A stretch of DNA of 64,000 nucleotides from Modestobacter sp. L9-4 (GTDB taxonomy: Bacteria; Actinomycetota; Actinomycetes; Mycobacteriales; Geodermatophilaceae). The stretch covers positions 2,418,001 through 2,482,000 of the forward strand of contig NZ_CP077800.1 of the NCBI RefSeq assembly GCF_019112525.1, read 5' to 3'. Position numbers and translations under genes: made by a program. The notes beneath the pieces were generated by a model that was not told the origin of the DNA, searched no databases, and saw only the letters and a list, made by a program, of their open reading frames with translations. Shown one piece after another: positions 2,768 through 25,776 of this stretch (position 1 is the first letter of the stretch; each line of letters starts with the position of its first letter).

Positions 2768-3550
2768 TCAGGCCCCGAGTCCGCGGAGGGCGTTGATGAT
2801 GGAGTCGGTGGTGGGCTGGTGGACCTCACCGGCGAGCCGGCCGTCGGCGAGCAGGACGACGCGGTCGGCGTAGGCGGCCGCGACGGGGTCGTGGGTGACC
2901 ATGACGACGGTCTGGCCGGTCTCGCGGACGCTGGAGCGCAGCAGGTCCAGCACCTCCGCCCCGGCGCGGGAGTCCAGGTTGCCGGTGGGCTCGTCGGCGA
3001 ACACGACGTCGGGGCGGGGGAGGAGTGCGCGGGCGACGGCGACGCGCTGCTGCTGCCCACCGGAGAGCTCGTAGGGGCGGTGGGCGAGGCGCTCGCGCAG
3101 ACCCAGGCGGGCGATGACGGAGTCCATCCAGGCGCGGTCGGGGCGCTGGCCGGCCAGCTGCATCGGCAGCAGCATGTTCTCCTGCGCGTTGAGCACGGGC
3201 AGGAGGTTGAAGGACTGGAAGACGAAGCCGATCCGCTCGCGGCGCAGCTTGGTCAGCTGGTCATCGCGCAGCCGGGTGAGCTCGGTGTCACCCAGCCACA
3301 CCTGCCCGGCGCTGGCGGTGTCCAGGCCGGCCAGGCAGTGCATGAGGGTGGACTTGCCCGAGCCCGAGGGCCCCATGATGGCGGTGAAGGCACCCCGCTC
3401 GAAGGCCACGTCGACACCGGCCAGCGCGTGCACGGCGGTCTCACCGGAGCCGTAGGTCTTGCGCAGGTCGGTGGCGCGGACGGCGGCGGTGGACACCGAC
3501 GCCGGCTCGCCCGGGACGGTCATGACGGGGACGGACACTTCGGCCTCCAA
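2768..3550 (-). CDS. ABC transporter ATP-binding protein (MacB/LolD type)
   Basis: A 260-residue ATPase with Walker [10 protein letters not shown] near residue 60, Q-loop in [12 protein letters not shown], signature [16 protein letters not shown], Walker [14 protein letters not shown] and the H-loop in VMVTHDP. The TGNLDS sequence after Walker B is characteristic of the MacB/LolD/FtsE subfamily that works with FtsX-like permeases. It ends 5 bases before the permease gene, so the two are surely co-transcribed. The protein is cytoplasmic at the membrane and drives export or mechanical release of the substrate. Confidence 0.95.
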
Positions 3551-3708
3551 GAGCGGTGATCAGGTCGTGATCACGCTCTCGCCCGGAGCCCTCCTCCCGC
3601 GTCGCCGCACAGGTGGGTCCTCGTCGGCACCTGCCTGGGGCCGGGGGATGACCCGACGTCATCCCCTGGGCTGACCTGCCGTCGGTGCAGCCGCCCGGCG
3701 GTCAGGTC

Positions 3709-3767
3709 GACGGTGTGCGCCGAGGCCGGGTTGCGGGACCGGTCACCCGGCCCGGGCGCACACCGTC
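3709..3767. terminator. Long hairpin between the two-component operon and the ABC operon
   Basis: Bases 3709-3721 (GACGGTGTGCGCC) are the exact inverse of 3755-3767, a 13-bp perfect stem. Inside the loop a second arm, GGCCGGG at 3724-3730, pairs with CCCGGCC at 3746-3752. It lies just after the stop of the response regulator on the minus strand, so it is a good candidate terminator. No T-run follows, as is usual in very GC-rich actinobacteria. Confidence 0.6.
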
Positions 3768-3782
3768 ACCCCGGCACGGCCC

Positions 3783-4487
3783 CTAGGCGTTGCGCAGCAG
3801 GTCGGCGGGGGCGACGAGGCCGGTGCGGTAGGCCAGGACGACGGCCTGCACCCGGTCCCGCGAGCCGGTCTTGAACAGCACCCGCCCGACGTGGGTCTTC
3901 ACCGTCGCCTCGCTGACGAACAGCTGCGCGGCGATCTCGGTGTTGGAGGCGCCGTAGGCCATCTGCACCAGCACCTCCTTCTCCCGTGGCGTCAGCTCCG
4001 CCAGCGCCGAGGCGTCGGCCGGCGCGCTGTCGGCGGCACCGCCCGCGCCCCGCAGGATCGGTGCGACGTGCTGCAGCAGCCGCCGGGTGGAGCTGGCCGC
4101 GATCACCGAGTCGCCGGAGTGCACGGTGCGCACCGCGGCCAGCATCTCCTCCGGCGGGGCGTCCTTGAGCAGGAAGCCGCTGGCCCCGGCGCCGATCGCG
4201 GCCACCACGTACTCGTCGAGGTCGAAGGTGGTCAGCACCACGACCCGCGGCGGCTCGGGCAGCGCGGTCACCTGCTCGGTGGCGGCGATGCCGTCCATCC
4301 CGGGCATCCGCACGTCCATCAGGACGACGTCGGCCGGCGTGCGGCGCAGCAGCTCCACCGCCGCGGCGCCGTCCCCCGCCTCGCCGACGACGGTGAGGTC
4401 GGGCTGGGAGTCGATCACCATGCGGAAGCCGGCGCGGACCAGCTGCTGGTCGTCGACGAGGACCACGCGGATCTGGTTGTCGGTCAT
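3783..4487 (-). CDS. NarL/LuxR-family response regulator
   Basis: A 234-residue DNA-binding response regulator. The receiver domain (about 6-120) shows the acidic pair in VVLVDDQ, the phospho-acceptor Asp in VVLMDVRMPGMDG and the conserved Lys in FLLKDAPPEE. The C-terminal LuxR-type helix-turn-helix (about 165-225) starts with LTPREKEVLVQMAYG. The ATG at 4487 overlaps the stop of the kinase gene by four bases (ATGA), giving translational coupling. The obvious partner is the kinase at 4484-6184 and a plausible target is the ABC exporter downstream. Confidence 0.95.
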   Translation of the reverse strand: MTDNQIRVVLVDDQQLVRAGFRMVIDSQPDLTVVGEAGDGAAAVELLRRTPADVVLMDVRMPGMDGIAATEQVTALPEPPRVVVLTTFDLDEYVVAAIGAGASGFLLKDAPPEEMLAAVRTVHSGDSVIAASSTRRLLQHVAPILRGAGGAADSAPADASALAELTPREKEVLVQMAYGASNTEIAAQLFVSEATVKTHVGRVLFKTGSRDRVQAVVLAYRTGLVAPADLLRNA

Positions 4488-6184
4488 CGGGACGCACGGT
4501 AGGGCAGGACGGCCTCGACGCCGAAACCCCCGCCGGTCCGCGGGCCGGCGGTCAGCCGCCCGCCGTGCAGCTGGGCCCGCTCGCGCATGCCCAGCAGGCC
4601 GTGTCCCTGCCCGTCGGCCTCCACGACCGCCGCCGCGCCCCGCCCGTCGTCGGTCACGGACAGCTCGAGGGCGTCCCGGCCCCAGTGCAGGCGCACCTCG
4701 GCCCGCCCGGCCGGGCCGGCGTGCTTGAGCACGTTGGTCAGCGACTCCTGCACGATGCGGTAGGCGGCCAGCTGCGGGCCGGCGGGCATCGGCTGGGGCG
4801 CGCCCTCCACCACCAGGTCGACGTCCAGGCCGCTGGAGCGGACGTCGGCGACCAGCTGGTCGATGGCGGCGACGTCGGGCTGCGGGGCGAACTCCTGCCC
4901 GTCGCCCTCGCGCAGCACCCCGAGCAGCTTGCGCATCTCGGCCAGCGCCTGCCGGCCGGTGGAGGAGATCTGCTCCAGCGCCGCAGTGGCCGCCACCGGG
5001 TCGGCCTGCCCGGCGTACCGCCCGCCGTCGGCCTGGGCGATGACCACCGACAGGGAGTGGGCGACCACGTCGTGCATCTCCCGAGCGATCCGGGCCCGCT
5101 CGGTCGAGGCGGCCAGCTGCATCTCCTGCTCCCGTTCCAGCTCCAGCAGCCGGGCGCGCTCCTCCAGTCCGGCCACCTGCTGCAGCCGGGCCCGGCGCAG
5201 GTCGCCCAGCGCCCAGGCGGCGACCACCAGGACGCCGATGCCGATCGAGGCGGCGAGGAAGTCGACCCCGCGGGAGTACGAGGCGACGGTGACGGCGGCC
5301 AGCAGCGCGCCGACGAGGCCCAGCGCCAGCCCGGCCCGGCTGGCCCACCGCGGCGCGTAGGCGGCCAGCGAGTAGACCACCACCGGGGCGGCCACGTTGG
5401 CGGGCAGGAAGTCGGCGGGGAGGACGACCAGCTCCACCAGGCAGGCGGCCACGACCACGGTCGCCGCGCGGACGGGCCGGCGCCGGCGCCAGGCCAGCGG
5501 GACCACCAGCAGCAGACCGATGAGGACCGCCCGTCCGGCGGGCTCGTACCCGGACGCCGGGGCGAGCACCAGGCCGAGCACGCCCAGCCCGGCGAGCGTG
5601 GCGTCGACCCCGAACGGGTGCTCGCGCAACCAGCGGGCGGTCCGTTCCAGCAGCGGTTCGGTCGGTGTCCACGGGACGTCGGGGTCCCGGGTCTCCGCCC
5701 GGCGGCGCCAGCGGCCCGCGCTCCAGGACGCGACGACGATGCCGCCGATGACCATCAGCGCCACCAGCGCCAGCGCGAGGCCGTCGGCCGAGTACGACCC
5801 GAAGAACACCGTGGCGGCGAGGGCGGCGCCCAGCAGACCGACCACGAGCCCGGCGCGGCCGGCCCACGGCGGGCCGTACGCGGCCAGCGCGTGGACCATC
5901 ACCGGCGCGGCGACGTTGGCCGGCAGGAACTCGTGCCGCAGGACCACCAGCTCGATCAGGCAGGCCGCCACCACGGCCGCCGCCGCCGCCACCGGCTCGC
6001 TGCGCCGCCAGGCCAGCGCCCCGCTGAGCACGACGGTCAGCAGCAGGCCGGTCGCCCAGCCGCCGTTGACCGCCCCGAACTGGAGCAGGACGCACGCCAC
6101 CCCGACCGTGGCGGCGATCGCGACGTCGACGCGCTGGTCGTGCTGCCGCCGCGTCGCCGCGGGTTCGAGCAGCCGGCGGTCCAC
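4484..6184 (-). CDS. NarL-type sensor histidine kinase with duplicated membrane module
   Basis: A 566-residue kinase. Residues about 21-160 and 195-330 are two copies of the same multi-helix membrane module; both contain LPANVAAP followed by an LAAY element. A dimerisation domain with the phospho-acceptor His in AREMHDVVAHSLSV (about residue 371) and a HATPase_c domain with the GHGLLGMRERAQLHGG box follow. The extracytoplasmic loops are short, so it probably senses a signal in or at the membrane. I chose the GTG at 6184: TACGCT, a -10-like box, lies 7 bases upstream, which suggests a leaderless mRNA; a longer reading to 6283 has no support. It phosphorylates the regulator at 3783-4487. Confidence 0.92.
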   Translation of the reverse strand: MDRRLLEPAATRRQHDQRVDVAIAATVGVACVLLQFGAVNGGWATGLLLTVVLSGALAWRRSEPVAAAAAVVAACLIELVVLRHEFLPANVAAPVMVHALAAYGPPWAGRAGLVVGLLGAALAATVFFGSYSADGLALALVALMVIGGIVVASWSAGRWRRRAETRDPDVPWTPTEPLLERTARWLREHPFGVDATLAGLGVLGLVLAPASGYEPAGRAVLIGLLLVVPLAWRRRRPVRAATVVVAACLVELVVLPADFLPANVAAPVVVYSLAAYAPRWASRAGLALGLVGALLAAVTVASYSRGVDFLAASIGIGVLVVAAWALGDLRRARLQQVAGLEERARLLELEREQEMQLAASTERARIAREMHDVVAHSLSVVIAQADGGRYAGQADPVAATAALEQISSTGRQALAEMRKLLGVLREGDGQEFAPQPDVAAIDQLVADVRSSGLDVDLVVEGAPQPMPAGPQLAAYRIVQESLTNVLKHAGPAGRAEVRLHWGRDALELSVTDDGRGAAAVVEADGQGHGLLGMRERAQLHGGRLTAGPRTGGGFGVEAVLPYRASR

Positions 6185-19890: not shown

Positions 19891-21720
19891 ATGACCGAAC
19901 GACAGGGAACGAGCCGAGGCCCGCGTTCCGCGGCGATGCTCATCGCCGGCGGCCTGCTGGCCGGCACCACCGTGATCGGGCTGCTGCCCACCACGGCCGG
20001 GGCCTCCAGCCACCGGGAGGCGCCGCTCATCGCCGCCGACCCGGCCGTCGACAACACCGACGTCTACGCCTTCTCCAGCCCCGAGAACGACGCCAACGTC
20101 GCCATCGTGGCCAACTGGGTGCCCTTCGAGGAGCCCAACGGCGGACCCAACTTCTACCCGTGGTCCGACGACGCCGAGTACCTGGTGAACATCGACAACG
20201 ACGGCGACGCGCTCGCCGACCTGGTCTACCGGTGGAGGTTCACCACCGACGACCGGCGCAGCACCGACACGTTCCTGTACAACAACGGCCCGGTCGACTC
20301 GCTCACCGACGACAACCTGCTGTTCCGGCAGAGCTTCACCCTCGACGTGAGCACCGACGGCGGCACCACCTACGGCGCCCCGATCGCCACCGGCCCCGTC
20401 GCGCCGTCCTACACCGGCCCGGGCAGCATGGGCACCTCGCAGGACTACGTCGACAACCTGCGGACCCCCGCGATCACGACCCTGCCCGGCGGCGGCCGCA
20501 CCCTCACGACCCAGGCCGAGGACTCCTTCTTCCTCGACCTGCGCGTCTTCGACCTGCTCTACGGCGGCGACCTCTCCGAGACGGGCCAGGACACCCTCGC
20601 CGGTTACAACGTGAACTCGATCGTGCTGGAGCTGCCGAAGTCCGAGGTGGCCATCGACAACGACGCCGCCGGCAACCCGGTGATCGGCGTGTGGAGCACC
20701 ACGACCCGCCCGACGCTGCGCAACGCCGACGGCACCGCCGCTGCGGGCGCCGGCTACACCCAGGTCTCCCGCCTCGGCCAGCCGCTGGTCAACGAGGTCG
20801 TCGTCCCGACCGGCCTGAAGGACGCCTTCAACTCGATCAGCCCCGACCAGGACGCCGCCGCCGCCGGCGGTGCCGTCGTGCAGCGGGTGCTCGACCCCGA
20901 GGTGCCCAAGCTGGTCGAGGGCATCTACGGCGTCCCGGCGCCGGAGGCCCCGCGCTACGACATCTTCGAGACGTTCCTCACCGGCATCGTCTCGACCGCG
21001 AAGCACGACGTCGACGGCGACGCCGCCACGGCCAACCCGATCGACGTGGACCTGAACTCCCAGGTCCTCAACGCCGGTGCCGACCCGGCTGCCTTCCAGC
21101 CGTCGGAGATGCTGCGGCTGAACATGTCCATCACGGAGCCGACCGGTCTCGACGGTCAGCCGCTGGCGCAGGCCAGCCGGCTCGGCGTCGTCGGTGGTGA
21201 CATCCAGGGCTTCCCGAACGGTCGCCGCCTGGCCGACGACGTCGTCGACATCGAGCTGCTGGCCCTCGAGGGCGTCTTCGACGTCTCCAAGGTGACCCCG
21301 GCGGACCCCGCCTCGGCCCTCGCCGCCGGTGACGGTGTCGACTCCAACGACAACGCGTTCAGCGGCACGTTCCCCTACATCGCCGGCCCGAACACCCAGG
21401 CCGTCAACAAGGGCGGTGGCACCGGCGCCGGTGGTACCGACCTGCCCACCGGCAACGGCAACCCGGTGACCCCGCCGGCCGCCATGGCCCCTCCGGCCGC
21501 TGCTCCCTCCGCCGGTGCCCCCGCGGCCGCCGCGCCGCAGGGCTCGGCCAACGGCTACCCCGTGGGTGGCGTCGAGACCGGTGAGGGTGGTCTGACCCAC
21601 ACCCTCATCCCGGCGCTGACCGGTGGCGCTGCGATGCTGCTGATCGGGGCCGGCGCCGGCTCGCTCCTGCGTTCCCGCAGCCTGCGGCGTCGCGCCGCGG
21701 GCCCGGGCACGCTCGCCTGA
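19891..21720 (+). CDS. Secreted DUF4331 protein with C-terminal membrane anchor
   Basis: A 609-residue protein. A signal peptide (residues 1-36: RGPRSAAMLIAGGLLAGTTV, cleavage after AGA) is followed by SSHREAPLIAADPAVDNTDVY, the conserved opening of DUF4331. The Asp-rich segment YLVNIDNDGDALADLVYRWR suggests a metal-bound beta structure. After about residue 500 there is a Pro/Ala/Gly linker, then GGVETGEGG, a 20-residue hydrophobic stretch and the basic tail RSRSLRRR. That is the three-part layout of a sortase substrate, and a sortase is the next gene. DUF4331 has no established function. A strong hairpin (21742-21775) separates it from the sortase gene. Confidence 0.88.
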   Translation: MTERQGTSRGPRSAAMLIAGGLLAGTTVIGLLPTTAGASSHREAPLIAADPAVDNTDVYAFSSPENDANVAIVANWVPFEEPNGGPNFYPWSDDAEYLVNIDNDGDALADLVYRWRFTTDDRRSTDTFLYNNGPVDSLTDDNLLFRQSFTLDVSTDGGTTYGAPIATGPVAPSYTGPGSMGTSQDYVDNLRTPAITTLPGGGRTLTTQAEDSFFLDLRVFDLLYGGDLSETGQDTLAGYNVNSIVLELPKSEVAIDNDAAGNPVIGVWSTTTRPTLRNADGTAAAGAGYTQVSRLGQPLVNEVVVPTGLKDAFNSISPDQDAAAAGGAVVQRVLDPEVPKLVEGIYGVPAPEAPRYDIFETFLTGIVSTAKHDVDGDAATANPIDVDLNSQVLNAGADPAAFQPSEMLRLNMSITEPTGLDGQPLAQASRLGVVGGDIQGFPNGRRLADDVVDIELLALEGVFDVSKVTPADPASALAAGDGVDSNDNAFSGTFPYIAGPNTQAVNKGGGTGAGGTDLPTGNGNPVTPPAAMAPPAAAPSAGAPAAAAPQGSANGYPVGGVETGEGGLTHTLIPALTGGAAMLLIGAGAGSLLRSRSLRRRAAGPGTLA

Positions 21721-21741
21721 GTCGGTCCCAGCCAGTCCAGG

Positions 21742-21775
21742 AGGGCCGCCCACGTCGACCGACGTGGGCGGCCCT
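21742..21775. terminator. Perfect 16-bp hairpin between DUF4331 and sortase genes
   Basis: AGGGCCGCCCACGTCG at 21742-21757 is the exact inverse of 21760-21775; TTCC follows. It lies 22 bases after the DUF4331 stop and 27 bases before the sortase start. It can end or attenuate transcription, so the abundant surface protein could be made in excess over the enzyme. Confidence 0.75.
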
Positions 21776-21801
21776 TCCGCCAGCCAGACAAGGAGGACAC
21801 C

Positions 21802-22599
21802 GTGACCGGTGCCCAGGACCACCCGCACGGTGCCGACGACCAGCCCCCGTTCCTCGAGGAGGAGCTGCAGGACGACGGCGGTGCCGGCGCCCCGGCCCAC
21901 CGGCGGGTGCCGCCGTGGCTGGTGCCCACGGTCGCGGCCGGCGTGGGCGGCGTGCTCGTCGGGGCACTCCTCTTCGGCGGTGGCGGTGACGCGCCCGTCG
22001 CGGCAGCGTCCGCCCCCGCCAGCTCCGCCCCGGCGACGGGCCCGGCGCCGGCCGCCCCCTCGAGCCCGCTGACCCAGGCCGAGCCGGTGGCCGTCGAGAT
22101 CCCGGCCATCGACGTCCAGTCCTCGCTCGTCGACCTGGGTCTGAACCCCGACCGCACCCTCGAGGTGCCCACCGACTTCGCCAAGGCCGGCTGGTTCACC
22201 GGCGGCAACCTCCCCGGTGCCCCCTCCGGCCCGCCGGCGCTCATCGCCGGCCACGTCGACGACTACACCGGCCCCGCGGTCTTCTACCGGCTCGGCGACC
22301 TCACCGCCGGCGACGAGGTCGAGGTCACCCGGGCTGACAACACCGTCGCGGTCTTCACCGTGACCGGGTCGCAGCAGTACCCGAAGAACGCCTTCCCGGC
22401 CGACCAGGTCTACGCGCCGGTCGACGACTCCGAGCTCGTGCTCATCACCTGCACCGGCAGCTTCGACGAGAGCGTCCGGTCCTACCGGGACAACCTGGTG
22501 GTGCGCGCGGTCCTGGACGTCGAACGGTCCCAGGAGGAGACCGCGGCGCGGGTCTCCGGTGGAGCGGCGGCGCCCGCCGGCGACCTGCCGAACGTCTGA
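21802..22599 (+). CDS. Class F-like sortase
   Basis: A 265-residue membrane transpeptidase. One N-terminal membrane helix (about 39-58) is followed by an Ala/Pro linker and the sortase domain from VAVEIPAIDVQSSLVDLGL onward. The catalytic residues are visible: His in IAGHVDDY (about 151), Cys in LVLITCTGSF (about 217) and Arg in RSYRDNLVV (about 229). It would join a surface protein to the cell wall or another acceptor; the neighbouring DUF4331 protein is the obvious client. GTG start after AAGGAGGACACC. The next gene starts one base after the stop. Confidence 0.92.
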   Translation: MTGAQDHPHGADDQPPFLEEELQDDGGAGAPAHRRVPPWLVPTVAAGVGGVLVGALLFGGGGDAPVAAASAPASSAPATGPAPAAPSSPLTQAEPVAVEIPAIDVQSSLVDLGLNPDRTLEVPTDFAKAGWFTGGNLPGAPSGPPALIAGHVDDYTGPAVFYRLGDLTAGDEVEVTRADNTVAVFTVTGSQQYPKNAFPADQVYAPVDDSELVLITCTGSFDESVRSYRDNLVVRAVLDVERSQEETAARVSGGAAAPAGDLPNV

Positions 22600-22600
22600 C

Positions 22601-23911
22601 GTGCGCCGTCGCACCGCGGTCAGCGCGGTCGTCGCCGGGGCGGTGCTGCTCCTGCTGTCCATCGCCGGCTTCTACGCGGTCTCCGTCGACCGCCAGACGG
22701 TCGTCGCGCAGACCCAGGACGTCCCCGCCCCGGCCGACCCGCTGGTCACCGCGATCGCAGCGGCACAGCAGCGGCTGACCGAGGTGCCCGGTGACTGGGT
22801 CACCTGGGCCCAGCTCGGCTCGGCCTACGTCGAGCAGGCCCGGATCACCGCCGACCCCTCGTTCTACGACAAGGCCGACGGCGCGCTCGCGAAGTCCCTC
22901 GAGCTCCGCCCCGAGGGCAACGACGCGGCGCTGACCGGCAAGGGCGCGCTGGCCAACGCGCGGCACGACTTCGCCGCCGCCCGCGACGCCGCCGAGGCCG
23001 CCCTCGCGATCGACGACTACGACGCCACCGCATGGGGCGTGCTGACCGACGCCCGCACCCAGCTCGGTGACCACGTCGGCGCCACCGAGGCGCTGCAGCG
23101 CATGCTCGCGCTCCGGCCCGGCATCGCGTCGTTCACCCGCGCCTCCTACGACGCCGAGCTGCACGGCGACCTCGACGCCGCCCGGTCCGCGCTGCAGCAG
23201 GCGCTGGACTCCACGCAGGACCGCTCCTCGGCCGCCTACTGCCGCACCTACCTGGGTGCCCTCGCCTTCTCCCACGGCGACCTGGACGGTGCCGCTGCCA
23301 GCTACGACGCCGGTCTGGCCGACGACCCCGACGAGCCCGCACTCCTGCTGGGTCGGGCCCGGGTCGACGCCGCCCGCGGGGACGTCGACCGAGCGGTCGC
23401 CGGGTTCGCCGCGGTCGTGGCGGCCCGGCCGCTGCCGGAGAACCTCGTCGAGTACGGCGAGTACCTGGAGTCGCTGGGCCGCCAGGACGAGGCCGACGAG
23501 CAGTACCGGCTGGTCGGGACGGTCCGCACGCTCTTCGCCGCCAGCGGTGTGCAGGACGACCTGTCGACGGCGTTGTTCGCCGCCGACCACGACGACCCGG
23601 CGACCGCGCTCGCGGCCGCGCAGGCCGAGTACGACCGGCGGCAGAACACCGACGCGCAGGACGCCCTGGCCTGGGCGCTGCACAGCGCCGGTCGGGACGA
23701 CGAGGCCCTGCCGCTGGCGCAGCAGGCCACGTCGCTGGGCGGGGCGAGCGCGGTTGCCCAGTACCACCGGGGCGCGATCGAGGCGGCCCTGGGCCGTACC
23801 GACGACGCCCGCGCGACCCTGGCCGGTGCCCTGGACACCAACCCGCACTTCTCACCGCTGCTGGCCCCGCGGGCCGCGCAGCTGCTGGAGTCGCTCGGCG
23901 GGCGCCCGTGA
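22601..23911 (+). CDS. Membrane-anchored TPR protein
   Basis: A 436-residue protein with an N-terminal membrane helix (residues about 6-26, AVSAVVAGAVLLLLSIAGFY) and the rest outside the membrane. Repeated 34-residue TPR-like units cover about 45-430, with the usual A/G-Y-A pattern (for example AWGVLTDARTQLGDHVGATE and AAYCRTYLGALAFSHGDLDG). TPR domains hold protein partners together. One base separates it from the sortase gene upstream and its stop overlaps the transporter start by four bases, so the three are one translational unit. Confidence 0.9.
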   Translation: MRRRTAVSAVVAGAVLLLLSIAGFYAVSVDRQTVVAQTQDVPAPADPLVTAIAAAQQRLTEVPGDWVTWAQLGSAYVEQARITADPSFYDKADGALAKSLELRPEGNDAALTGKGALANARHDFAAARDAAEAALAIDDYDATAWGVLTDARTQLGDHVGATEALQRMLALRPGIASFTRASYDAELHGDLDAARSALQQALDSTQDRSSAAYCRTYLGALAFSHGDLDGAAASYDAGLADDPDEPALLLGRARVDAARGDVDRAVAGFAAVVAARPLPENLVEYGEYLESLGRQDEADEQYRLVGTVRTLFAASGVQDDLSTALFAADHDDPATALAAAQAEYDRRQNTDAQDALAWALHSAGRDDEALPLAQQATSLGGASAVAQYHRGAIEAALGRTDDARATLAGALDTNPHFSPLLAPRAAQLLESLGGRP

Positions 23912-25776
23912 CCCGCCGCCGGCTCCCGGCGGTCCTGCTGGCAGCAGCGGCCCTGTGGGCCGTCGTCCCGGCGGGGGTCGCGTCGGCACACCCGCTGGGC
24001 AACTTCACCGTCAACCACTACGACCACCTGGAGCTCGCGCCCGGCGAGGTGCGGCTGACCGCGATCGTCGACCGGGCCGAGATCCCGACCGCCCAGCTGC
24101 TGCCCTCGATCGCCGCCGGGGACGTGCTCACCGAGGCGGAGGCCGCCACGGCGGCCGAGCCCGAGTGTGCCGAGGTCGGTGCCGCCGTCCAGGTCTCCGT
24201 CGACGGTCGGGCCCTGGAGTGGAGGGCCACCGGCAGCACGCTGGAGACCGTCCCAGGCGCTGCCGGGCTGCCGACCCTCCGGCTGAGCTGCGGGTTCCGG
24301 GCCGAGGCCGACCTCGACGGCGAGTCACAGGTCAGCGCCGCCGACACCTACCTGACCGACCGGGTCGGCTGGCGGGAGATGACCGCCGTCGGTGACGGGG
24401 TGGCCCTCCTGGACTCCCCGGTGCCCGTGGCCAGCGTCAGCGACGAGCTGCGCACCTACCCGGTGGACCTGCTGGCCTCCCCGGTCGACGTGCGGTCGTT
24501 CACCGTCGCGACCCGGCCGGGGGTGACCACCGGCACCGGCGCCACCATCGTCCCCGGCTCCGGGGACCCGTTCACCGACGTCGTCGCCGGGCTGGACCGA
24601 CGGTTCGAGGGGCTGATCGGCTCCGACGACCTGACCGTGGCGGTCGGCGCGCTGGCCGTGCTGCTCGCCGTCCTCCTCGGCTGCGGCCACGCCCTGCTCC
24701 CGGGACACGGCAAGACCGTGATGGCCGCCTACCTGGCCGCCCGCCGGGGGCGCAGCCGCGACGCCGTCGTCGTCGGTGCGACCGTCACCGCGACCCACAC
24801 GGTGGGCGTGCTCGTGCTCGGGCTCGCCATCTCGGTGTCCAGCTCGCTCGCCGGTGACCAGGTCATCCGCTGGCTCGGGGTCGCCAGCGGGCTGCTCGTC
24901 GCCGGCATCGGACTGTCCATGCTCCGCGGCGCCCTGCGCCGGCGGCCCGCGGTCGGGGCGTCGGCCATCGACACGGTCCCCGAGGCAGTGCTCGTGGCCG
25001 CCGCGAGCGGCTCGAGCCGGGACGTCGCCCGCGCAGCTGTGCCGCACACGCACCCGCACGGCGACCACGACCACCCGCACGACGGCGGCCACGAGCACCT
25101 GCACCCCCACCCGCACCCGGACGCTGGTGGCCACGACCACCAGCATCCGCACGAGCACCCGCACGACGGCGGCCACGACCACCCGCATCCGCACGAGCAC
25201 CCGCACGACGGCGGCCACGACCACCCGCATCCGCACGAGCACCCGCACGACGGCGGCCACGACCACCCGCATCCGCACGAGCACCCGCACGACGGCGGCC
25301 ACGACCACCAGCACGACCACCCGCACCCGCACGAGGGCGCGCACGATCACCCGCACAGCCGCGGCAGCTGGTGGTCCGGCGGGCACGACCACGGGCCCGG
25401 CGGGCACACGCACGGACCCGGTGGACACACCCACGGGCCGGGCTCGGGACGCAGTGGCCTGGTCGGCATGGGCATCGCCGGCGGCCTGGTGCCCAGTCCA
25501 TCGGCGCTGCTGGTGCTGCTCGCCTCGATCGGCCTCGGCCGCACCGTGTTCGGCGTCGTGCTCGTGCTGGCCTACGGGCTGGGCATGGCCGGCACCCTGA
25601 CCGTCGTCGGCCTGCTGCTGGTGAAGCTGCGCGGCCGGCTGGAGCGGCGGGTCTCGGTCCTGGGCAGGTCCCGCGCGCTGGTCGCCGTCGTCCGGCTCGC
25701 GCCGGTGCTCACCGCGAGCCTGGTGCTCCTCGTCGGGCTGTCCCTCGCCGTCCGCGGCGCCCTGTACGGCGCCTGA
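23908..25776 (+). CDS. NicO/RcnA-type nickel-cobalt transporter with long His-rich loop
   Basis: A 622-residue protein. A signal peptide (1-27, ends GVASAHPLGNFTVNHY) precedes an extracytoplasmic domain (about 28-220). The membrane part opens with LLGCGHALLPGHGKTVMAAY (about 253-272), the metal motif of the NicO family, and the second half has GGLVPSPSALLVLLASIGLG. Between them, residues about 380-510 are a His/Asp/Gly-rich loop built from 14-residue repeats of HEHPHDGGHDHPHP. The family moves Ni2+ or Co2+; direction is not certain from sequence. GTG start overlaps the TPR stop (GTGA). Confidence 0.9.
   Translation: MTRRRLPAVLLAAAALWAVVPAGVASAHPLGNFTVNHYDHLELAPGEVRLTAIVDRAEIPTAQLLPSIAAGDVLTEAEAATAAEPECAEVGAAVQVSVDGRALEWRATGSTLETVPGAAGLPTLRLSCGFRAEADLDGESQVSAADTYLTDRVGWREMTAVGDGVALLDSPVPVASVSDELRTYPVDLLASPVDVRSFTVATRPGVTTGTGATIVPGSGDPFTDVVAGLDRRFEGLIGSDDLTVAVGALAVLLAVLLGCGHALLPGHGKTVMAAYLAARRGRSRDAVVVGATVTATHTVGVLVLGLAISVSSSLAGDQVIRWLGVASGLLVAGIGLSMLRGALRRRPAVGASAIDTVPEAVLVAAASGSSRDVARAAVPHTHPHGDHDHPHDGGHEHLHPHPHPDAGGHDHQHPHEHPHDGGHDHPHPHEHPHDGGHDHPHPHEHPHDGGHDHPHPHEHPHDGGHDHQHDHPHPHEGAHDHPHSRGSWWSGGHDHGPGGHTHGPGGHTHGPGSGRSGLVGMGIAGGLVPSPSALLVLLASIGLGRTVFGVVLVLAYGLGMAGTLTVVGLLLVKLRGRLERRVSVLGRSRALVAVVRLAPVLTASLVLLVGLSLAVRGALYGA
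25150..25311 (+). repeat. 42-bp coding tandem repeat (His-rich loop)
   Basis: Copies beginning with CACGAGCACCCGCACGACGG start at 25150, 25192, 25234 and 25276, exactly 42 bases apart and nearly identical in DNA; the fourth diverges near its end. Each encodes 14 residues. The near-identity at DNA level, including third codon positions, indicates recent expansion by slippage or unequal recombination. Confidence 0.92.

Follow-up and report, generated by a model that had tools for sequence, protein, structure and literature searches.

The window considered here is a 64,000-nucleotide stretch of the Modestobacter sp. L9-4 genome (RefSeq assembly GCF_019112525.1, contig NZ_CP077800.1, positions 2,418,001 to 2,482,000), whose forward strand carries a run of four genes for a secreted DUF4331 protein, a class F sortase, a membrane-anchored tetratricopeptide repeat (TPR) protein and a NicO-family permease of the nickel/cobalt type. 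Three of these recur as a set, namely DUF4331, the TPR protein and a permease of anglerase-like type, which is NicO in Actinomycetota and HupE/UreJ-2 in Pseudomonadota. In DUF4331, a histidine is conserved three residues from the predicted free N-terminus. At roughly even odds (about 0.48), the locus represents, in one lineage, a widespread system that relays Ni(II) or Cu(II) outside the cytoplasm: DUF4331 would bind the metal, the TPR protein would dock DUF4331 and the permease would move the metal. Mature DUF4331 would hold Ni(II) or Cu(II) at its NH2-Ser-Ser-His tip through the chemistry of amino-terminal copper- and nickel-binding (ATCUN) sites. The membrane-anchored TPR protein would dock DUF4331 beside the permease, whose outer His1 domain would take the metal and pass it to the transmembrane part. 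Display at the envelope would vary by lineage, with a sortase and a GVxTG tail in the window and a plain C-terminal membrane anchor in many other cases; elsewhere DUF4331 may be free, or possibly exported by type II secretion.

The association of the three genes is documented by neighbourhood surveys. A class-wide sample of 197 genomes contained a DUF4331 match in 51 of them, and 39 of the 43 full-length matches outside the window's own genome were opened as loci (G015, G070 and G150 were not opened; G074 was opened later as L178, a form starting directly at the start codon, with no TPR or NicO match). DUF4331, TPR and NicO stood together in 28 of these 39 loci. Two further loci were truncated by contig ends and nine had no such partners, seven of them being forms that lack a signal peptide and two being second copies in genomes that hold the triad elsewhere. 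Such adjacency is not a matter of chance, since PF03824 detects NicO in at least 105 of the 197 genomes (a lower bound, as this type of NicO scores weakly) and two in the own genome, yet NicO is found beside DUF4331 in most of the loci. A second actinobacterial sample comprised 80 named loci, the best 80 of 588 relatives, and the window, 81 in all; the closest named relatives of the window locus among those best 80 were Blastococcus and Geodermatophilus. This sample is biased to close relatives because it was searched with patterns near SSHREAP, SSHREAP itself being excluded, and at least one of its loci is shared with the class survey, L060 being identical to L139. TPR and NicO lay within 4 kb of DUF4331 in 70 of the 81 loci, and four of the remaining 11 sit at contig ends (L080, L104, L145, L150). 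Outside the actinobacteria the evidence consists of plasmid records, 18 of the 32 matching ones having been opened; among their 14 Pseudomonadota loci, 8 have both TPR and a HupE/UreJ-type permease next to DUF4331. The adjacency thus far exceeds chance and reaches beyond close relatives. The initial annotation had proposed a surface metal system of all four genes, an idea that was to gain if they co-occurred beyond chance and outside close relatives and to fail if they were adjacent only in this lineage. The co-occurrence of DUF4331, TPR and a Ni/Co-type permease is borne out, Pseudomonadota included, and what survives of the proposed system is a three-gene module; the sortase is not a core member but an optional add-on.

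The layout of the module varies. DUF4331 is divergent from TPR-NicO in L034, L035, L037, L038 and L045, so the link of DUF4331 to its partners outlasts a change of operon layout. In three Actinomadura loci (L114, L115, L116) the order is TPR-NicO-DUF4331-sortase, with the sortase last, and in three Streptomycetaceae loci (L117, L143, L147) NicO lies on the strand opposite DUF4331 and TPR. A search for a further constant neighbour gene gave, as its largest other cluster (36 loci), generic ABC ATPases, and no such gene was retained.

The second main line of evidence is the N-terminus of DUF4331. In the window, the gene (19891..21720, + strand, 609 aa; PF14224, 454.9 bits against a cut-off of 27) opens with a 38-codon signal peptide (19891..20004, +) that ends TTAGA before SSHREAP (20005..20025, +). 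Cleavage at this border, as indicated by relatives, would expose NH2-Ser-Ser-His, an ATCUN-type start that emerges from both the alignments and a survey of motif positions. Two alignments, one with 17 rows and one with 47, show SSHREAP without variation; neither of them includes L072 with its TSHWDAP. The position survey covered 122 DUF4331 open reading frames (ORFs), of which 121 were readable and 120 different; in L079 the N-terminus lies beyond the contig and was unread. The regular expression used already includes the histidine and thus tests its position, not its presence. The motif directly follows the alanine that ends a hydrophobic leader in 113 of the 121 readable ORFs (112 SSHREAP, 1 TSHWDAP), and it directly follows the start codon in the other eight, which are forms without a signal peptide. 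In the cytosol, removal of methionine before serine is expected. On a tree of 121 DUF4331s, built by a quick method and with some weak branches, seven start-codon forms make one clade with 100% support in the Shimodaira-Hasegawa-like approximate likelihood ratio test (SH-aLRT), and for this reason they probably go back to a single loss of the signal peptide that ended precisely at the first mature residue.

More distant relatives follow the same rule. All 18 opened plasmid loci have x-x-His at the predicted start, preceded by Ala in 15, Gly in one and Ser in two; in two of them (L160, L185) the start reads Ala-Ser-His. The short distant DUF4331s, including the second copy in the window's own genome, begin M-S-[HND]-H in 12 of the 13 opened, the motif being otherwise mostly lost. 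L177 was entered as a miss, and in L170, L172 and L175 the S-x-H start codon sits within a longer open frame. What the sequences share is a small residue, any residue and then a histidine, placed at a predicted free N-terminus. According to passages of PMC7701195, the ATCUN site for copper and nickel has the form NH2-x-x-His, and the predicted mature SSH start, with its cut site placed by conservation, presents exactly this arrangement. The likeness to ATCUN peptides such as the albumin N-terminus, in the excerpted PMC7701195, lies in the free amine and His3, whereas here an entire family of bacterial proteins that carry an attached domain appears to keep the tip.

A tip fixed to the residue might also belong to an enzyme. 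DUF4331 could be a metalloenzyme or another enzyme that needs an exact N-terminus, with the permease supplying cofactor metal and the TPR protein aiding maturation or assembly, or, in a sub-version, with Ser1 as an N-terminal nucleophile (Ntn). The family does hold many further invariant polar residues, for example PNGRR and SRL..PL.NE, and NicO/HupE genes often neighbour metal-using enzymes. Moreover, two processing routes lead to one N-terminus, as an N-terminal nucleophile would show. Nevertheless, this explanation is unlikely. The AlphaFold2 (AF2) model of DUF4331 (predicted local distance difference test, pLDDT, 82; predicted template modelling score, pTM, 0.88) gave no Foldseek match in the PDB at E <= 0.001 (none of the 50 listed rows exceeds a probability of 0.14), a result that counts against a relay as well. 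The N-terminus is modelled at low confidence, and residue 1 is aligned as Ala in two of the 18 plasmid loci (L160, L185) and as Thr in L072, with His3 kept. The invariant Ser/Thr/Cys that an Ntn hydrolase should have at residue 1 is thus not seen, L160 and L185 having Ala1 as aligned, though the cut in L160 may lie elsewhere. For a tip that is conserved yet unstructured, a role as a ligand or partner site would be easier to account for than a structural role.

If it is a partner site, SSHREAP could be a docking peptide read by the groove of the TPR protein, and not a metal ligand, leaving the adjacent permease as the sole metal-related part. TPRs elsewhere read C-terminal peptides. The TPR protein is indeed the most constant partner of DUF4331, being present in 79 of the 81 named loci and in 13 of the 18 opened plasmid loci. 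However, the seven class-survey homologues without a signal peptide keep SSHREAP with no TPR match in their 12-20 kb loci, distant homologues retain S-x-H only, and docking gives no need for position 3 from a free amine. A pure docking role is accordingly quite improbable.

The permease gene (23908..25776, +, 622 aa; PF03824, 42.6 bits against 27.7) encodes, by profile match and AF2 model, a NicO membrane part preceded by an outer anglerase-like domain. Its start reads ASA followed by HPLGNFTVN, so that cleavage between them, the predicted cut, would leave a free His1 after the signal peptide; the outer beta-sandwich domain with this putative mature start occupies 23989..24591 (+). Of 70 loci with NicO, 69 show the HPL start, 64 of them with Ala at position -1 (L096 was unread at its permease start), and all eight HupE partners have Ala followed by His at the corresponding junction. 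In the AF2 model of the mature window permease the mean pLDDT is 71, the ten-residue blocks of the outer domain lie mostly at 85-98, and the weak spots are the first block (61) and residues 160-170 (about 65). Foldseek returned one PDB match at E <= 0.001, the copper-bound Ang-1 structure 9gce (E 7.5e-4, probability 1.00), which argues for an Ang-1-like beta-sandwich in the modelled outer domain.

The comparison with the Ang-1/Ang-2 anglerase-HupE/UreJ-2 permeases described by Franco Cairo et al. 2025 (PMC12537917, seen in part) thus covers a signal peptide, a free N-terminal histidine, a beta-sandwich and a nickel-family permease. In passages of that paper, anglerases are proposed to fish metal for their permease. 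The eight Pseudomonadota partners found here, with their Ala-His junction, are of the HupE type, and the three of them that were scanned all match HupE_UreJ_2 in Pfam. The window permease differs in that it matches PF03824 NicO only, not PF13795 (HupE/UreJ-2), and carries a NicO membrane part and a His-rich loop instead of HupE_UreJ_2. It therefore appears anglerase-like in modelled fold and His1, yet is not a HupE/UreJ-2 protein. The loop (25042..25449, +) holds 50 His in 136 residues and is built on a 42-bp tandem repeat; it would face the cytoplasm, because the N-terminal domain is predicted to point outward and the helices of the AF2 model then place the loop on the inner side. The terms DUF4331, tetratricopeptide, TPR, NicO and ATCUN are absent from the main text of PMC12537917, and within the open-licence PMC literature the word 'anglerase' was found only in that paper. 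Similarly, a search of open-licence PMC papers turned up none that names DUF4331 or PF14224, and searches with the DUF4331 and NicO profiles against the sequences of solved structures gave no convincing match.

Ni(II) uptake would be slightly preferred over Cu(II) as the function of the relay. The nickel/cobalt assignment comes from the permease family, and copper would suit the N-terminal sites no less well. Passages of PMC7701195 state that ATCUN sites bind Cu(II) roughly a million-fold more tightly than Ni(II), and passages of PMC12537917 give 74 and 62 nM for the binding of Cu(II) to anglerase domains and 220 nM for that of Ni(II) to RbAng-1a. Because ATCUN strongly favours Cu(II), the hand-over of Cu(II) to an anglerase site of ~70 nM would be uphill, while the transfer of Ni(II) need not be, and this gives the slight preference for nickel. 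A purely Cu(II) role is also disfavoured by the forms that lack a signal peptide, since their tip stays in the cytosol and Cu(II) would not be expected there.

With copper as the metal, a sink would be the likelier role of DUF4331. In this alternative, surface DUF4331 would sequester Cu(II) or Ni(II), and the permease would export metal or load DUF4331, lowering toxicity at the envelope. ATCUN sites hold Cu(II) at log K of about 12 to 14.7 (examples in the excerpted PMC7701195), far tighter than anglerase sites. By this difference Cu(II) would flow toward DUF4331. Furthermore, the closest NCBIfam model of the window NicO is the RcnA-type efflux model PRK10019 (82.3 bits), and the His-rich loop of the window permease is predicted to face the cytoplasm. 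The score is, however, far under the cut-off of 195, and the cytosolic forms retain the tip in a place where no Cu(II) is expected. The NicO membrane core above the PF03824 cut-off is shared with RcnA-type efflux proteins, as is a His-rich loop, and the window permease adds an outer domain of ~200 residues and a signal peptide. The proposal of capture for anglerase domains (passages of PMC12537917) also points away from a sink. Protection by sequestration is a rather improbable account of the module.

Several observations weigh against the relay. The cleavage sites of DUF4331 and the permease are placed by conservation, because a home-made signal-peptide finder mostly cut elsewhere, giving His3 in 4 and His1 in 1 of 92 DUF4331 and NicO ORFs; the base rate of His3 after signal peptides from this crude finder (4 of 209 other ORFs) was not relied on. 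Residues 1-10 of DUF4331, though conserved, and residues 1-4 of the permease, the site of the proposed His1, have pLDDT below 50 in the AF2 models. ATCUN chemistry offers no explanation for the conserved R4-E5-A6-P7 in the full-length DUF4331 family. The match to 9gce is one of fold only, with a root-mean-square deviation of 9.3 A over 149 columns, 14% identity and a TM-score of 0.41 by target length, and profile comparison of the NicO with the HupE partners found no detectable homology (hhalign E 0.083). Transport may run outward and not inward, the closest NCBIfam model being that of an efflux pump, albeit far under its cut-off. The module is also incomplete in places. The seven named loci beyond those at contig ends (five from Nocardia, L132 and L141) have TPR without NicO; both Bacteroidota loci (one species), L154 and also one Pseudoalteromonas locus have DUF4331 and TPR without HupE, TPR alone being found in 1 of the 14 Pseudomonadota loci; and the five Rhodobacterales loci among those 14 show neither TPR nor HupE. 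Moreover, no nickel/cobalt or cobalamin riboswitch was found at the Rfam gathering threshold in the window or seven relatives.

A broader generalisation can be put forward more tentatively and is somewhat doubtful. DUF4331 would be a pan-bacterial class built on a fixed free NH2-Ser-x-His tip that forms, with TPR and an anglerase-type permease, a two-handed extracellular relay, the soluble partner contributing His3 and the permease His1. Lineages would have recruited a sortase, a membrane anchor or possibly type II secretion for it, and signal-peptide loss would have put the start codon where the same tip stays exposed in the cytosol. In any case, the neighbourhood and the N-terminal rule give a domain of unknown function specific, testable metal residues. 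If the proposal is true, the newly described anglerase permeases gain a soluble partner, and ATCUN chemistry gains a natural bacterial protein family. An N-terminal tag or a retained methionine would then spoil the site, and ordinary recombinant studies of DUF4331 could come up empty. The conserved mature N-termini (NH2-S-x-H and the permease His1) and the anglerase-like fold were absent from the initial annotation, as were two features described below, the hairpin that follows DUF4331 and regulators of the SigK/RskA type in other lineages.

In the window, the sortase gene (21802..22599, +, 265 aa; NF033748, 171.1 bits against a cut-off of 166) follows DUF4331, and the TPR gene (22601..23911, +, 436 aa; TPR_14, TPR_19, TPR_2 and others) follows in turn. 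The TPR protein has, from its sequence, a single N-terminal hydrophobic segment and then TPR repeats. The gap between the sortase and TPR genes is 1 base and the TPR and NicO genes overlap by 4 bases; the four genes, their order and this tight spacing, as initially described, are confirmed by coordinates and profile matches. The sortase carries GHVD, TCTG and YRDN motifs, which are taken here as the catalytic His, Cys and Arg.

The tail of the window DUF4331 comprises a sorting-type motif, GGVETGEGG (21565..21591, +), followed by a transmembrane segment and an Arg-Arg tail. The match of this C-terminal sortase-like anchor, which had been described initially, to NF058571 GVDTG_CTERM (E 8.8e-5, 22.7 bits) stays under the cut-off of 29. 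Compared with class F sortases with GVDTG signals, the window thus has a sortase above its own cut-off and a tail below that of NF058571; the pairing of NF058571 with class F is suggested by gene neighbourhoods. Among the 81 named loci, a sortase lies within 1.5 kb and on the same strand of the main DUF4331 copy in 13, and a GVxTGxGG-type motif precedes the C-terminal membrane segment in 12 of these 13 DUF4331s and in 1 of the 68 others (Fisher p = 2e-12, with related rows and a regular expression composed once the tails had been inspected). The sortase-adjacent exception is L113, where the sortase is upstream, and the motif without an adjacent sortase is in L145, which ends 47 bases from the contig end. 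The Geodermatophilaceae loci without a sortase (L076-L078) also lack the motif. Since the tail tracks the adjacent sortase, anchoring is its natural reading, and the sortase probably anchors DUF4331 in that part of the family where it adjoins. The earlier idea that the sortase fixes DUF4331 therefore probably holds locally and not in general.

The sortase as a core component was rejected on the basis of these 13 of 81 loci and of the DUF4331 tree, on which the sortase label changes eight times, at least four changes being forced by well-supported branches. The label spans Geodermatophilaceae, Thermomonosporaceae, Streptomycetaceae, Micromonosporaceae and others. A sortase also adjoins DUF4331 in L048 and in L164, a Streptomycetaceae plasmid with the window's exact gene order. 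Several cases fall outside the count of 13, including class F sortases ~2.3 kb beyond NicO in L098 and L100, and class F sortases 12-17 kb from DUF4331 in five genomes of one genus (probably Streptomyces), which were not scored as adjacent. A further uncounted sortase belongs to L133, where a second DUF4331 copy (3411-5965, minus strand) has its own sortase and TPR and a tail of the GVxTGxGG kind, DGGIGAGFGG; the main triad on the same stretch has no sortase.

DUF4331 and the sortase gene are separated by 81 bases, in which a hairpin is predicted at 21740..21777 (+), with 17 pairs that include a single G-U; the surrounding 84-nt region has a folding energy of -45.7 kcal/mol (z -4.75). Hairpins of differing sequence stand 3' of DUF4331 in all four other Geodermatophilaceae loci examined (L074, L075, L076, L081), and a scan found no T-tailed terminator. 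From the hairpins in the window and these relatives, DUF4331 may form a separate or attenuated transcript relative to the downstream genes. DUF4331 also has a conserved Asp-rich loop of calcium-binding-like appearance (window 20188-20220, mature residues 62-72, NIDNDGDALAD).

Genes of the SigK/RskA type flank the module in L036, L039-L043, L045, L047, L056, L061, L109, L120, L123, L126, L149, L158 and L165. Overall, 25 of 120 loci have an RskA-like anti-sigma gene no more than 2.5 kb from DUF4331 or the module, and in 18 of these 25 an extracytoplasmic function (ECF) sigma factor gene was found as well. RskA_C (PF10099) gives only 53 matches in 60 genomes. The 25 loci include six from closely related Lentzea (with weak scores) and three seeds of the hidden Markov model used, and two of them (L064, L065) are start-codon forms without the triad from one genome. 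An RskA-like gene is found just before DUF4331 in both opened Pseudoalteromonas loci. DUF4331 may thus belong to the regulon of a SigK/RskA-type pair in distant lineages. In comparison with such ECF regulation, the window module has no adjoining RskA gene, the nearest RskA_C of its genome being ~30 kb away. A shared upstream operator was sought by dyad counts over 118 upstream stretches, which gave only G+C-rich words, and an ECF-like promoter pattern, present in 8 of the 118 where plain shuffles averaged 2.35, was too weak to be used.

Other neighbours were noted in single lineages. In five Rhodobacterales plasmid loci (L159, L160, L161, L181, L182), DUF4331 and a small gene lie opposite a cluster of type II secretion genes, and in L159, L160 and L161 the annotation places a prepilin peptidase upstream; type II secretion is possibly a dedicated route for DUF4331 there. 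A small gene, lipoprotein-like by eye, stands between DUF4331 and TPR in four Pseudomonadota loci (L155, L157, L158, L165), and the gene in this position is annotated as Ig-like in Pseudoalteromonas. Finally, the second, short DUF4331-like gene of the window's own genome (C1:60311-61024; L073 9505-10527, minus strand) has no signal peptide and starts GTG-S-H-H-L-D-T-P; its neighbours, by eye, are an ABC transporter ATPase and an alpha/beta hydrolase.

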